A stretch of 64,000 bases of DNA, from positions 62,001 to 126,000 of the forward strand of contig NZ_JAIQZF010000002.1 in the NCBI RefSeq assembly GCF_020164585.1, written 5' to 3'. How positions within the stretch are numbered: the first letter of the stretch is position 1; each line of letters starts with the position of its first letter. The DNA is from Psychroflexus curvus. GTDB lineage: Bacteria > Bacteroidota > Bacteroidia > Flavobacteriales > Flavobacteriaceae. A program made the translations under genes and the position numbers. The notes below the pieces were generated by a model that was given only the letters and a program-made list of their open reading frames with translations, was not told the origin of the DNA and made no database searches. Shown here piece by piece: positions 7,120 through 62,379 of this stretch.

Positions 7120-8325
7120 TTAGTCTGGAAACACCGCGATAAACACCTCCGCAAAGGATTGTCCCACCTGTTCTTTTAAATCTTCCACTGAGATTTTTCC
7201 AATTTTATACTGAAGTTCTTTCTGGGTTCCTTTAAGAATTTCCGTTTTAAACTGAAAAGGCTCCAAATCTTCTCTAGCGTAAGAAGAGATGTAGACTTTG
7301 ACAAGTTTTTCCGGATCAAACCCGGCTTCGGGGCTTTGGCGGGCAGGTTCAGGAATGTCTTTACTGACTTTCGAATACGGATAAGCATAGCCTTTCAGCA
7401 GAGAAACCAGATCTGAAAGCACGGCGCTGGCCGTTGGTATACTCCCGGCTCCTTTGCCTTGGAGCAGGTGTTGATGTGCAAACTCAGCATCGATTTGTAC
7501 GGCATTGTTTTCAAAGTCAATGCTGGTGATGGCTTCAGTATTTGAGATAAATTGTGGAGCGACGTAAGTTTCAAGTTGTCCCTCTTCCAGCTTGGAATGA
7601 CCGATCAATTTTATACTGAAATTCTTTTCCTTGGCAAATTCAATGTCTTCTGGTTTGATGTGACGAATGCCTAAATTCAAAATATCCTCAGGTCTATGTA
7701 ATACGCCAAACCCGTGGTAATTCTTGAGTATCAGTTTGAATTTAGAATCCCAGCCGTCGATGTCTAAAGTCGGGTCAGATTCTGCAAAGCCATGTTTTTG
7801 AGCATCGGTGATGATGTCATCAAAAGGCTGTGGATTTTGAAACAAACGCGTGAGTACATAATTGCTGGTGCCGTTGCTTATGGCTTTTAAAGACGTTAGT
7901 GGATCATGTCCAAAAGATTCTTCCATGGTTCTTATCACAGGAATACTTCCGCAAACTGCAGCTTCGTAAAGCAGACTCACGCCTTTTTTTTGTGCAAGCG
8001 TGATGAGTTCTTCAAAATGTTCAGCCAGCATTTTTTTATTGGCAGAAACCACGTGTTTTTTACGGTTTAAAGCTTGCTTTACGATGTCAAAAGCGGCATC
8101 AGCATCATCGATTAACTCCAAAACCACATTGATGTCTTCGTCTTCTAAAACCTCTTCAGCTTTATAACTGAAGAGGTTAGAATCTATAGATCTGGGTTTG
8201 TCTGGATTTTTGACAATGATAGTTTTTATTTGAATTTTTGGTATGGCTTTTTTCCTGAGTACATGGTATATCCCAGAACCTACACTCCCAAATCCAAACA
8301 ATCCTATTCTTAAATTTTGTGACAT
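7120..8325 (-). CDS. hom: homoserine dehydrogenase, last gene of the methionine operon
   Basis: The enzyme reduces aspartate semialdehyde to homoserine with NAD(P)H. At 401 residues it is a stand-alone dehydrogenase without a fused aspartokinase. The nucleotide-binding motif is LFGFGSVGSGIY near the N-terminus. The catalytic core carries AAVCGSIPVIRTMEES and SNGTSNYVLTRLF, then FAESDPTLDIDGWDSKFKL. A short ACT-like tail ends the protein. Residues about 326-335 (PARQSPEAGF) are encoded by a sequence resembling the intergenic REP palindrome and may be an insertion. It starts 3 bp after metX and feeds homoserine to MetX. Confidence 0.93.
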   Translation of the reverse strand: MSQNLRIGLFGFGSVGSGIYHVLRKKAIPKIQIKTIIVKNPDKPRSIDSNLFSYKAEEVLEDEDINVVLELIDDADAAFDIVKQALNRKKHVVSANKKMLAEHFEELITLAQKKGVSLLYEAAVCGSIPVIRTMEESFGHDPLTSLKAISNGTSNYVLTRLFQNPQPFDDIITDAQKHGFAESDPTLDIDGWDSKFKLILKNYHGFGVLHRPEDILNLGIRHIKPEDIEFAKEKNFSIKLIGHSKLEEGQLETYVAPQFISNTEAITSIDFENNAVQIDAEFAHQHLLQGKGAGSIPTASAVLSDLVSLLKGYAYPYSKVSKDIPEPARQSPEAGFDPEKLVKVYISSYAREDLEPFQFKTEILKGTQKELQYKIGKISVEDLKEQVGQSFAEVFIAVFPD

Positions 8326-8328
8326 GGG

Positions 8329-9339
8329 TTATAATTTAAAATGTTTTTGTAGTAGTAATTTTATAGTTTCAACTTCTATCAGGAAGCCATCATGGCCATA
8401 GGTAGAATCAATAATTTCCAAGGCTGAATCAGAAATATGTCGGGCTAGAAATTTCTGCTCTTCTATGGGAAATAGCAGATCGCTTTGAATACCAATCACT
8501 AGGGTTTTGGCCTTGATTTGTGCCAGAGCCTTTTCACGACTCCTTCTTTTTCTACCCACATCATGGCTATCCATTGCTTTGGATAGATACCAATAGGCTT
8601 TAGCATCAAATCGTCTCGAGAGCTTTTCCCCCTGGTATTTTTGATAGGAAGACGCCCTAAACTGATCTGTCGTATTTTCCTGATCGATTTGTGTGGTTTG
8701 GTAAGTCCTATAATTTCTGTAACTCACTAAAGCAATTGCTCTGGCTGCTTCAAGCCCTTTCTTTCCGGCCCCTTTTTTGTTTTCAGAAAATGTAGAATCC
8801 GCTTCAATGGCCATGCGCTGGGTTTCATTGAGGGCAATTCCCCAGGAAGAATGTTTGGCACTCGTTGCCAGTAATACCAGATTTTCGATTTTCTCTGGTT
8901 CCTGAATAGCCCATTCCATAGCTTGCATTCCTCCCATTGACCCTCCCAGGAGATATTGAATTTTAGTGATTCCTAAATGATCACTTAAAAGGGCCAGACT
9001 TTTGGAAATATCTCGTATGCTGAACTTTGGAAAATTCAATCCAAAGATTTCTTTGGTTTCAGGATGTATGCTTTGTGGGTTGGTACTTCCGTAGCAGGAA
9101 CCGATTATATTGACGCAAATCACAAAATACTTATCGATATCAATGCCATTTTTCTTATCAAAAATGCCGGGCCACCATTCTTCAGGGTGCGCATTGGCGG
9201 TTAAGGCATGGCATATCCAGATCACGTTAGAACCCTCAGTATTGAGCTGGCCTAAAGTGTTATAAGCCAACTCAAGTTCAGGTAAACTCTGACCGTTTTC
9301 AAGTTCGAAAGGGTTTTGATACTTAAATAGTTTAGGCAT
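8329..9339 (-). CDS. metX: homoserine O-acetyltransferase
   Basis: The enzyme acetylates homoserine from acetyl-CoA to give the MetY substrate. It is an alpha/beta hydrolase with nucleophile Ser in [12 protein letters not shown], the Asp in GIQSDLLFP and His in YGHDGFLIE. The frame stays open upstream to 9393, but [11 protein letters not shown] is the conventional start. It gives 336 residues and an 8-bp overlap with the upstream OsmC-like gene, typical of translational coupling. The operon context (metY upstream, homoserine dehydrogenase downstream) confirms a role in methionine synthesis. Confidence 0.93.
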
Positions 9340-9796
9340 ATGCTTCTTCCTTGTAAGCTGATTTTGAAATGTGATACTGAATTGGGGTGACATTGCTTAA
9401 ATTATCGTTGACAGGGCATCTTTGCTTTACGTTTTTCAAAAGAAAGTCTACGCTTTCCTGAGTGGCATTGGTAACAAAATCAATGGAAACCTCCAAAGAC
9501 TGAAAACCAGCCCGACCTTCTTCACTTAGCCCCAAAAATTTGGCAGCATCTATATTTCCGTTGATATTTATTTTGAAATCGTAGAGTTTTATGCCCAGTT
9601 CTTTGGCCACCAAATTGATGACCACATTAAGACAGCCTGCATAACCTGCGAGTAAATATTCGACTGGATTGGCAGCTAAATCCTCGCCCCCAAGTTCATG
9701 AGGCTCATCTACCAAAAAGTTGAATTGTCTTGAAGTCCCTTTATATAAGGTTGAATTGATACTGGATCCGTTTATTGAAAAATTTGATAAGCTCAT
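9332..9796 (-). CDS. OsmC/Ohr-family protein
   Basis: This 154-residue protein has the two family cysteines, one in [13 protein letters not shown] and one in [12 protein letters not shown], as in OsmC-type thiol peroxidases. Residue pattern and length fit the OsmC branch rather than Ohr. Its place between metY and metX suggests a job linked to sulfur metabolism, perhaps removing peroxides or handling reactive sulfur species. That is inference from context; the reaction has not been read from sequence. It lies 12 bp after metY. Confidence 0.87.
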
Positions 9797-9808: not shown

Positions 9809-11113
<1,305 letters not shown>

Positions 11114-11144: not shown

Positions 11145-11204
11145 GGCTCGAAACATCTTCAGAAATGAAGATTAGAGCTATTTAGAAATTTGTGGAAGTG
11201 AGCC
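11145..11204 (-). promoter_or_regulatory. nested stem-loops between leader ORF and metY (candidate attenuator)
   Basis: On the minus strand GGCTC (11204-11200), starting on the last base of the leader stop codon, can pair with GAGCC (11149-11145). Within it lies a hairpin of ATCTTCA, TTTC, TGAAGAT (11172-11155). Ribosome position on the leader ORF would decide whether the outer stem forms. No U-run follows, so control of metY translation or processing is as likely as termination. Confidence 0.5.
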
Positions 11205-11266
11205 TATGCGCACATATAAGAAAAGCACGACATAGGCATGCGCATTCGCATAGATGGCGAGCACAT
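11204..11266 (-). CDS. 20-residue Met/Cys-rich leader peptide upstream of metY
   Basis: ATG at 11266-11264 and TAG at 11206-11204 enclose 20 codons translating to MCSPSMRMRMPMSCFSYMCA. Nine of twenty residues are Met (6) or Cys (3), the amino acids made by, or feeding, the operon. The ORF begins 78 nt after the riboswitch and ends 93 nt before metY. It contains a 7-bp inverted repeat (CTATGCG at 11204-11210 and CGCATAG at 11247-11253), so translation and folding compete. This is the pattern of an attenuation leader sensing charged tRNA-Met or tRNA-Cys. No ribosome-binding site is obvious, as is usual in Bacteroidetes. Confidence 0.6.
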   Translation of the reverse strand: MCSPSMRMRMPMSCFSYMCA

Positions 11267-11344
11267 GAATAAAGTGGAAACTAATTCAAAATTGAATAAA
11301 TTGGAAAAAGCGGTGTTTAAAAAATACAAGTTCATTTTCTTATA

Positions 11345-11443
11345 ATTTATATGTCCCTAGTAGGGCAGGAATTAGCACCTTTCAACACTTTGTTGAGGTT
11401 GCCGAGGGTCGTAGAGCCTGTCTCTTACCTCTTCTTTATAAAT
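11345..11443 (-). promoter_or_regulatory. SAM-I (S-box) riboswitch
   Basis: On the minus strand the transcript reads AAGAAGAGGTAAGAGAC, then GGCTCTACGACCCTCGGCAA, then AAAGGTGCTAATTCCTGCCC. These are the S-box core elements, including the kink-turn region and the GGTGCTAATTCC segment. P1 closes perfectly: ATTTATA (11443-11437) pairs with TATAAAT (11351-11345). It binds S-adenosylmethionine in known members and lies in the leader of the metY operon. No classical terminator follows directly, so its output may be translational or act through the downstream leader ORF. Confidence 0.93.
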
Positions 11444-11472
11444 CATACACCGAAAAGTGGTAGATGATGATG

Positions 11473-11503
11473 CAAACATAAATCAAACTTTATAAATAGC
11501 AAA
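11473..11503 (-). promoter_or_regulatory. promoter of the metY operon
   Basis: Minus strand TTTG (11503-11500), 19 bp, TATGTTTG (11480-11473) matches the Bacteroidetes -33/-7 consensus in both boxes and spacing. Transcription would begin about 20 nt before the riboswitch P1. Confidence 0.75.
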
Positions 11504-61956: not shown

Positions 61957-62379
61957 ATGGAAATTCAACTCAAATCCTTAGATGGCGATACACTTTCAGT
62001 AAATAGTCTACTGAATGAAGGTAAGGTGAACCTCATTCTTTTTTACAACACATATTGCTTGGGCTGCACAGGAAGAGCCATTCCATTTGCATATGAATTA
62101 TCTCAAGATTTTCCTGGATTGAATTTAATTGTCATTCATAGCAATTTCGGAAATCAGTCGTTTTCTAAAAAAGAAATTTTAGACGTTTTTACCACCAAAA
62201 CCTCTCCTTTCGACATTTATATCGACCCAAAGGCAAAGGCTTATCATTACTTTGAGTGTGAAGGCACACCGCATTGGATAGTGTTGGATCAAAAACTAAC
62301 TAATTACAGGAGTATTTTTGGCTCTCAGGATCAAGCCCAGCAAAGGCTCTGGTATGCTATAGAGTCGCTAAAAGAATAA
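61957..62379 (+). CDS. thioredoxin-fold (redoxin/TlpA-like) protein
   Basis: The 140-residue protein has a thioredoxin fold with a CLGC active motif in FYNTYCLGCTGRAIPFAYEL and the cis-proline region ECEGTPHWIVLDQ. There is no signal peptide or lipobox, so it is probably cytoplasmic, unlike typical TlpA/ResA proteins. The active site CxxC with Leu-Gly suggests disulfide exchange. It is divergent from pyc, with both starts 118 bp apart. Confidence 0.85.
   Translation: MEIQLKSLDGDTLSVNSLLNEGKVNLILFYNTYCLGCTGRAIPFAYELSQDFPGLNLIVIHSNFGNQSFSKKEILDVFTTKTSPFDIYIDPKAKAYHYFECEGTPHWIVLDQKLTNYRSIFGSQDQAQQRLWYAIESLKE

Follow-up and report, generated by a model that had tools for sequence, protein, structure and literature searches.

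How might a single mRNA leader weigh the level of SAM together with the supply of Met and Cys? The question is raised by the metY locus of Psychroflexus curvus, which lies in the window analysed here, a stretch of 64,000 nucleotides (positions 62,001 to 126,000 of contig NZ_JAIQZF010000002.1). The original prediction, made from the sequence of this DNA, had described a SAM-I riboswitch, then a short open reading frame (ORF) rich in Met and Cys, then metY, and this observation was confirmed, with RF00162 matched at 74.3 bits, the ORF present and metY identified by TIGR01326. The elements of the leader and the genes behind it are as follows:

11473-11502, minus strand: promoter-like element TTG-N19-TATGTTTG, read from the sequence
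11344-11444, minus strand: SAM-I riboswitch aptamer (RF00162, 74.3 bits, model positions 1-108 of 108)
11336-11351, minus strand: 3′ strand of P1 (UAUAAAUU) with an 8-nt spacer, the region in which translation of the leader ORF is presumed to start
11204-11335, minus strand: leader ORF of 43 codons, MNLYFLNTAFSNLFNFELVSTLFMCSPSMRMRMPMSCFSYMCA, from the ORF list; in the same place in 18 of 18 Psychroflexus metY loci
11207-11266, minus strand: final 20 codons of the leader, rich in Met/Cys (6 Met and 3 Cys)
11202-11237, minus strand: hairpin spanning the 3′ end of the leader ORF together with the stop codon, GCCTATG (11237-11231) with CATAGGC (11208-11202)
11146-11178, minus strand: hairpin 3′ of the leader stop, CTC..CTTC..GAAG..GAG, lacking a strong U-tract
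9809-11110, minus strand: metY, O-acetylhomoserine sulfhydrylase family (TIGR01326, 665 bits, cut-off 495; PF01053)
9332-9796, minus strand: gene of an OsmC-family protein in the same gene run (PF02566)
8329-9393, minus strand: metX-like homoserine O-acetyltransferase gene (NF001209, 332.2 bits, cut-off 331)
7120-8325, minus strand: homoserine dehydrogenase gene, hom (PF00742, NF004976)

The aptamer, read at 11444-11344 on the minus strand, scores above the curated gathering threshold of RF00162 (44.4 bits) and is the one SAM-I match in the genome; the S-box had been called complete, and the full model was indeed matched, P1 reading off the Rfam alignment as 8 standard pairs, one of them a G-U. 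In the Rfam scan of the window leader RF00162 alone rose above threshold, with no T-box and no other catalogued leader RNA, and weak sub-threshold matches to leader families were seen in two further loci (L011 and L014, E 0.4-0.8). A promoter had also been proposed, and the promoter-like element at 11502-11473 on the minus strand agrees with it; its consensus we take to be that of the Bacteroidetes promoter. A TAnnTTTG box lies 32-37 nt upstream of the aptamer in 16 of the 18 Psychroflexus loci, with the TTG correctly spaced in 10 of the 18. The 7-bp inverted repeat over the ORF (GCCTATG/CATAGGC) and the stems ahead of metY, the second hairpin being found at 11178-11146, are likewise where they had been placed. 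Among the genes of the run, the metX-like ORF scores 352.6 bits against TIGR01392, below the cut-off of 500, and counted from its first ATG it shares 62 nt (9332-9393) with the 3′ end of the OsmC-family ORF; its true start may lie further inside the ORF.

One part of the original prediction had to be redrawn. The 20-codon ORF MCSPSMRMRMPMSCFSYMCA is present, with its 6 Met and 3 Cys, 77 nt 3′ of the aptamer, but it forms the 3′ portion of a longer ORF of 43 codons, entered at an internal ATG (11266), the actual start lying 69 nt upstream; the shorter ORF was ruled out as the leader, since the upstream start is the one that relatives keep. These relatives were drawn from a genus set of 27 genomes, with SAM-I in 19 of them (20 matches) and metY at E ≤ 1e-100 in 17, which together with a metY fragment in a further genome (G017) give 18 Psychroflexus metY loci. 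SAM-I stands upstream of metY in all 18, and in all 18 an ORF starts 1-13 nt after P1 and carries at least four Met/Cys in its last 12 residues, i.e., the conservation of frame and of Met/Cys content that had been proposed as a check is found throughout. The remaining two SAM-I matches of the genus are without such an ORF; by inspection, one (L005) precedes a metH-like gene and the other (L020) a gene resembling a PLP enzyme. Within the window, the leader ORF is the sole ORF with at least five Met/Cys in its last 12 residues (848 overlapping 450-nt segments, both strands).

Only 4 of 299 sampled Flavobacteriaceae genomes had metY at E ≤ 1e-160, which suggests acquisition or patchy loss of the gene in the family, and for this reason the phylum rather than the family was sampled. 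The upstream regions of metY were taken from the best 80 named loci, the genus loci and a phylum sample, in which metY was found at E ≤ 1e-170 in 213 of 395 genomes and which contributed its best 30 loci plus another 57 regions, in most cases a single one from each genus; two more regions came from the family-wide search. The 234 loci were reduced to 207 matching metY, 204 with a start, 177 distinct and, after removal of four paralogues (L022, L024, L029 and L037), 173; the loci are related by descent, and counts made on them are not counts of independent events. With SAM-I assigned by Rfam matches and a leader defined as at least five Met/Cys in ten residues, the 173 regions fall into five classes: 41 have the riboswitch followed by the leader, 10 the leader followed by the riboswitch, 15 the leader only, 81 the riboswitch only (including the window-clade loci L004, L008, L009 and L011, just under the leader threshold) and 26 neither (meaning that no aptamer lies entirely inside the 700 nt examined). 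Among these 26, nine have a same-strand aptamer about 580-1600 nt upstream (L133, L139, L149, L151, L167, L180, L181, L186 and L212), another (L097) ends at a contig edge and in another (L218) the match is under the cut-off.

Our preferred reading, to which we give a probability of about 0.68, is that of a two-input nested leader of the metY-osmC-metX-hom operon, which would respond to SAM and to the charging of tRNA-Met and tRNA-Cys. The first input would be SAM, read by the SAM-I aptamer, and the second the charging of the two tRNAs, read through translation of the 43-codon leader ORF, in which the Met/Cys codons adjoin the stop. The two sensors are likely to be nested, the 3′ strand of P1 doubling as the A/U-rich start region of the leader, so that P1 stabilised by SAM would shut off leader translation. 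At high SAM, no ribosome would be held on the Met/Cys codons and the downstream RNA would be repressive; at low SAM with charged tRNA plentiful, again no ribosome would be held and the downstream RNA would be repressive; at low SAM with Met and Cys scarce, a ribosome would stall near the end of the ORF and the operon would be kept on. An AND gate of this kind, in which the riboswitch decides whether the leader is translated and the operon is on only if SAM is low and Met/Cys-tRNA scarce, is reasonably probable. Sensing and stalling by the window leader, like SAM binding, translation and the direction of each effect, are what we infer from the sequence. Among the points that count against the two-input reading are the 81 of 173 regions in which the riboswitch is present but no ORF reaches the Met/Cys threshold set for a leader, and the fact that a shortage of Met would lower initiation on the leader too, besides elongation.

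The argument for nesting begins at the start codon of the leader. It had been remarked in passing that the riboswitch could act by hiding the start of the leader ORF, and this suggestion fits the data best: in 38 of the 41 riboswitch-then-leader loci the distance from P1 to the ATG is 1-13 nt (8 nt in the window locus). In the three exceptions it is 43 nt (L090), 146 nt (L142) and 62 nt (L120, whose Rfam match probably stops short). Among the riboswitch-only loci, 55 of 81 have their first ATG within 14 nt, compared with 20% for random points. The positions ahead of the ATG are rich in A: of 78 loci, 66 have it at -12, 66 at -13, 46 at -3 and 37 at -6. Bacteroidetes mRNAs have been described as being without Shine-Dalgarno sequences, and in F. 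johnsoniae, according to the same source, A at those positions promotes initiation, as does low structure from -20 to +20 (PMC6847099). The A-rich stretch before the leader ATG is the 3′ strand of P1 itself, and a P1 stabilised by SAM should therefore block leader initiation. A pairing alternative to P1 was also considered, together with a 10-bp repeat (TATAAGAAAA/TTTTCTTATA), and was dropped because neither was retained in the relatives inspected.

How a stalled ribosome would be felt by metY was approached through terminators, which have been surveyed before (PMC2965389). A terminator with a U-tract follows the leader in 6 of 10 leader-then-riboswitch loci, 9 of 15 leader-only loci and 5 of 41 riboswitch-then-leader loci, against rates in shuffles of 7.5%, 3.1% and 2.4%, respectively (L090 being counted under leader only in the shuffle rates). 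In 13 of these 20 terminator-bearing loci, among 66 leader loci, the end of the ORF pairs with the 5′ arm of the terminator at p ≤ 0.05 relative to shuffles (4 of 6, 7 of 9 and 2 of 5 in the three classes), a first, stricter antiterminator test having given 10 of 20. Two Psychroflexus loci (L010 and L013) are textbook cases of a terminator with an antiterminator; in L016 and L019 the terminator is present and the pairing is not significant.

In the window clade the scan found no intrinsic terminator in any of the 10 loci, and a looser scan gave weak candidates in two (L002 and L003). A candidate at the window locus was discarded, as it lies within the leader ORF. Nor was an antiterminator switch found at the window locus, where the inner stem of the downstream hairpin, in which four pairs are changed on both sides among the ten aligned loci, forms at seven of seven modelled ribosome positions; only its outer stem swaps partner, by a pairing not seen in relatives. 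Pairing of the ORF end with the downstream hairpin amounts to 4-5 bp in the window clade and was rejected on inspection as not conserved. Because the terminator was looked for and is not found there, the window locus was not filed as an intrinsic-terminator attenuator. The idea of two sensors, one for SAM and one for Met/Cys codons, is upheld in so far as relatives preserve the frame and the Met/Cys content against a background of drift at most other codons, but no RNA switch leading from stalling to metY was found in the window clade.

Candidates for the output step in this clade are Rho, mRNA decay or a translational block. A proposal along these lines, in effect a version of the two-input explanation for the window clade, is that the output is Rho-dependent termination, mRNA decay or translation coupling, depending on ribosome occupancy at the 3′ end of the leader; its chances are a little short of even. 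It is consistent with the 36 of 41 riboswitch-then-leader loci that are without an intrinsic terminator, and Rho has been proposed for the Cys-run leaders of Mycobacterium (PMC1262725, as far as the available part of that paper goes). C also exceeds G downstream of the ORF in 39 of 40 riboswitch-then-leader loci, but this bias is also common ahead of metY without a leader (68 of 81 SAM-only loci, 22 of 26 with neither element; 16 of 28 for other genes of the window) and for that reason says little, the C-rich, G-poor stretch being a weak candidate for a Rho signal when the controls show it too.

A different explanation would keep both sensors and deny the nesting, i.e., two independent controls would stand in series, the leader peptide attenuating by itself and the riboswitch acting elsewhere, by its own terminator or by RNA decay, and not through the leader start. 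Such a layout has real counterparts in the phylum: the leader precedes SAM-I in 10 loci, 6 of them with a terminator between leader and aptamer, and in 4 of these 6 a second terminator follows the aptamer, so that those four loci would hold two attenuators in series. In L142 (G578), a terminator-like stem with a T run lies between SAM-I and a leader with six consecutive Cys. For the riboswitch-then-leader loci, however, the spacing of the leader ATG just after P1 in 38 of 41 leaves no space for a separate expression platform, and the best-scoring 30 SAM-I loci of the family search, mostly ahead of metH, have no ATG within 14 nt (the nearest at 19 nt). As an account of the window locus, controls in series are unlikely.

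The nested two-input leader can also be set within the range of arrangements in the phylum, which suggests that the same two modules are wired differently from clade to clade: nested, in series, or as the leader alone. Genera with the riboswitch before the leader include Psychroflexus, Pararhodonellum, Indibacter, Mongoliibacter, Arthrospiribacter, Belliella and Pontibacter; the reverse order was seen in sample families f24 and f17, which we infer to be Bacteroidales; and the leader-only loci include Thermophagus and Breznakibacter. The AND gate extended in this way, with the leader start covered by the riboswitch in loci of Psychroflexus and of the Cyclobacteriaceae type and with series or leader-alone wiring elsewhere, seems to us more plausible than otherwise. 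In two loci (L121 and L130), two consecutive short Cys/Met-rich ORFs, possibly two leader peptides, were observed ahead of metY.

All of this presumes that the ORF is translated and is read for its codons. Among the 173 regions, the best ATG-started ORF within 450 nt had at least five Met/Cys in its last 12 residues in 57, compared with 1 of 3460 dinucleotide shuffles and no antisense strand out of 173; at a threshold of at least six, the counts were 41 regions, no antisense strands and no shuffles. A test free of such selection fixed the frame by the first ATG 0-14 nt after P1, which gave 84 ORFs of at least 12 codons and 13-55 codons in length. In their last 12 codons, Met and Cys together numbered 325 of 1008 in frame 0, 117 in frame +1 and 31 in frame +2, and at least four Met/Cys were found in 45, 1 and 0 of the 84 ORFs, respectively; upstream of this tail the three frames are similar, with 60, 72 and 52 of about 1984. 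From the body to the tail of these ORFs, Cys rises from 1.2% to 20.7% and Met from 1.8% to 11.5%, and the ratio exceeds 2 for no other residue except Trp, itself rare. Both TGT and TGC are used in 35 of the 47 tails with at least two Cys. As a correction to the original prediction, it is Cys that outnumbers Met in the riboswitch-then-leader loci, by 188 to 83 (best windows). Fewer than four Met/Cys in the last 12 codons were counted in 39 of the 84 ORFs, one of which (L018) was read from an out-of-frame first ATG, and 22 of the 39 are titled Algoriphagus. In Algoriphagus and its kin (L062-L128), many ORFs start about 9 nt after P1 without a Met/Cys tail, and it is possible that the codon sensor has been lost there and the riboswitch-controlled ORF retained.

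Within Psychroflexus the same constraint can be followed codon by codon. Across the ten closest aligned loci, gaps inside the ORF are multiples of three and gaps in its flanks are of other lengths, and the N-terminal codons drift; pairwise codon differences number 228 nonsynonymous and 20 synonymous in the last 15 codons, and 747 and 140 before them. In the tails, all ten loci share CGA-ATG, CCT, the last ATG and GCA, other Met/Cys columns being kept in nine of ten, and alignment codons 36-37 and 42-44 are variable, with Met/Cys lost or gained at several columns. The tail of the window species reads CFSYMCA and those of relatives up to CCCCMCA, i.e., it has fewer Cys than some sisters, and the genus as a whole has three dissimilar kinds of tail (e.g., MRM..PM.C...MCA, CCMRMCC and MMMSMRMQ). 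The tail is thus better conserved than the rest of the ORF, yet not frozen. The hairpin over the ORF end is nearly invariant in the ten loci, which gives it no covariation support, and part of the conservation of the tail may therefore be structural. That the ORF is a functional small Met/Cys-rich protein, for example one binding metals or thiols, and not cis-acting, is very improbable: the frame is kept and runs of Cys resemble metal-binding tails, but the window ORF has no Pfam match, on which ground a metal-binding protein was set aside, the N-terminal codons drift, the 84 ORFs after P1 vary in length from 13 to 55 codons, and 13 of the 66 leader loci show better pairing than shuffles between the ORF end and an arm of a terminator. 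Equally hard to credit is that the ORF is untranslated and owes its Met/Cys codons to RNA structure or to chance, for although the tail coincides with the nearly invariant hairpin in the window clade, the enrichment is specific to one frame, draws on both Cys codons, recurs in relatives with different tails and is absent from shuffles and antisense strands.

Among known systems, the window leader would work like a ribosome-mediated leader-peptide attenuator, of the trp/his type, joined to a SAM-I riboswitch. With such attenuators it shares a short ORF ahead of a biosynthetic operon, with codons for amino acids of the pathway at its end, and in some relatives the antiterminator/terminator pairs as well; it differs in having Met and Cys codons together, under a riboswitch, and in that no intrinsic terminator was found in the window clade. 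As a SAM-I riboswitch it has an aptamer that matches the whole model, but P1 sits next to the beginning of a leader ORF and not next to a terminator or the start of metY. Both parts are of known kinds, and what may be new is the nesting, in which an RNA sensor would gate the translation of a codon-based one. We know of no earlier leader-peptide sensor built on Met codons, and a search of the open-access literature (titles and abstract openings) found no description of a SAM riboswitch ahead of a Met/Cys leader peptide; an earlier report may exist elsewhere.

Several partial parallels can be named, each as far as the available part of its source goes. Cys codons in a short upstream ORF are found in the Cys-run leaders of mycobacterial cys operons, in the Actinobacteria (PMC1262725), and in uORFC-8-2 ahead of cysS in Rhodobacterales (PMC8632094); these belong to other phyla and genes, and neither Met codons nor a riboswitch is mentioned in those parts of the two papers. 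The Xanthomonas SAM-I riboswitch also binds uncharged initiator tRNA-Met, and there, too, one met leader reads both SAM and the charging of Met-tRNA, but by direct binding of the tRNA to the RNA, which frees a Shine-Dalgarno sequence (PMC7270179), whereas the presumed sensor here is a translated ORF. The tandem attenuators mgtM and mgtP of Salmonella mgtCBR are likewise stacked leader elements for two signals, one of them sensed through the translation of particular codons, but they are two ORFs acting independently and additively, and the part available describes no aptamer over an ORF start (PMC3641672). In Sinorhizobium meliloti metA, which has a SAM-II riboswitch with a terminator and a second AUG, a riboswitch again controls translation upstream of further control, but AUG1 and AUG2 are in frame for metA and no codon-specific leader peptide is described in the accessible portion (PMC9373788). 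Nearer to Psychroflexus, 'strong clues' of leader-peptide attenuation ahead of amino-acid operons have been noted in F. psychrophilum (PMC9723704), and small ORFs reminiscent of leader peptides in B. thetaiotaomicron (PMC7366714).

If the nested two-input reading is true, the leader would be a two-input logic gate that can be tested with simple reporter swaps, a model for riboswitch-gated initiation in bacteria without Shine-Dalgarno sequences, and, through the different orders of its modules, a natural series for studying how leaders are rewired. The paired sensors before metY suggest two-input control of sulfur amino acid synthesis, and short Met/Cys-rich ORFs ahead of metY in Bacteroidota would merit annotation.

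Two further observations concern other RNA elements near metY. A paper of 2009 placed a SAM-V riboswitch ahead of metY in Psychroflexus torquis (PMC2704228, in the part available); scanning five Psychroflexus loci gave no SAM-V match, and one of the five, the metY locus L011 (G025), has SAM-I and a leader. Lastly, two Belliella contigs carry the DUF805 RNA motif (RF03081) on the upstream side of their metY locus, at 201-268 in L089 and 211-280 in L110.
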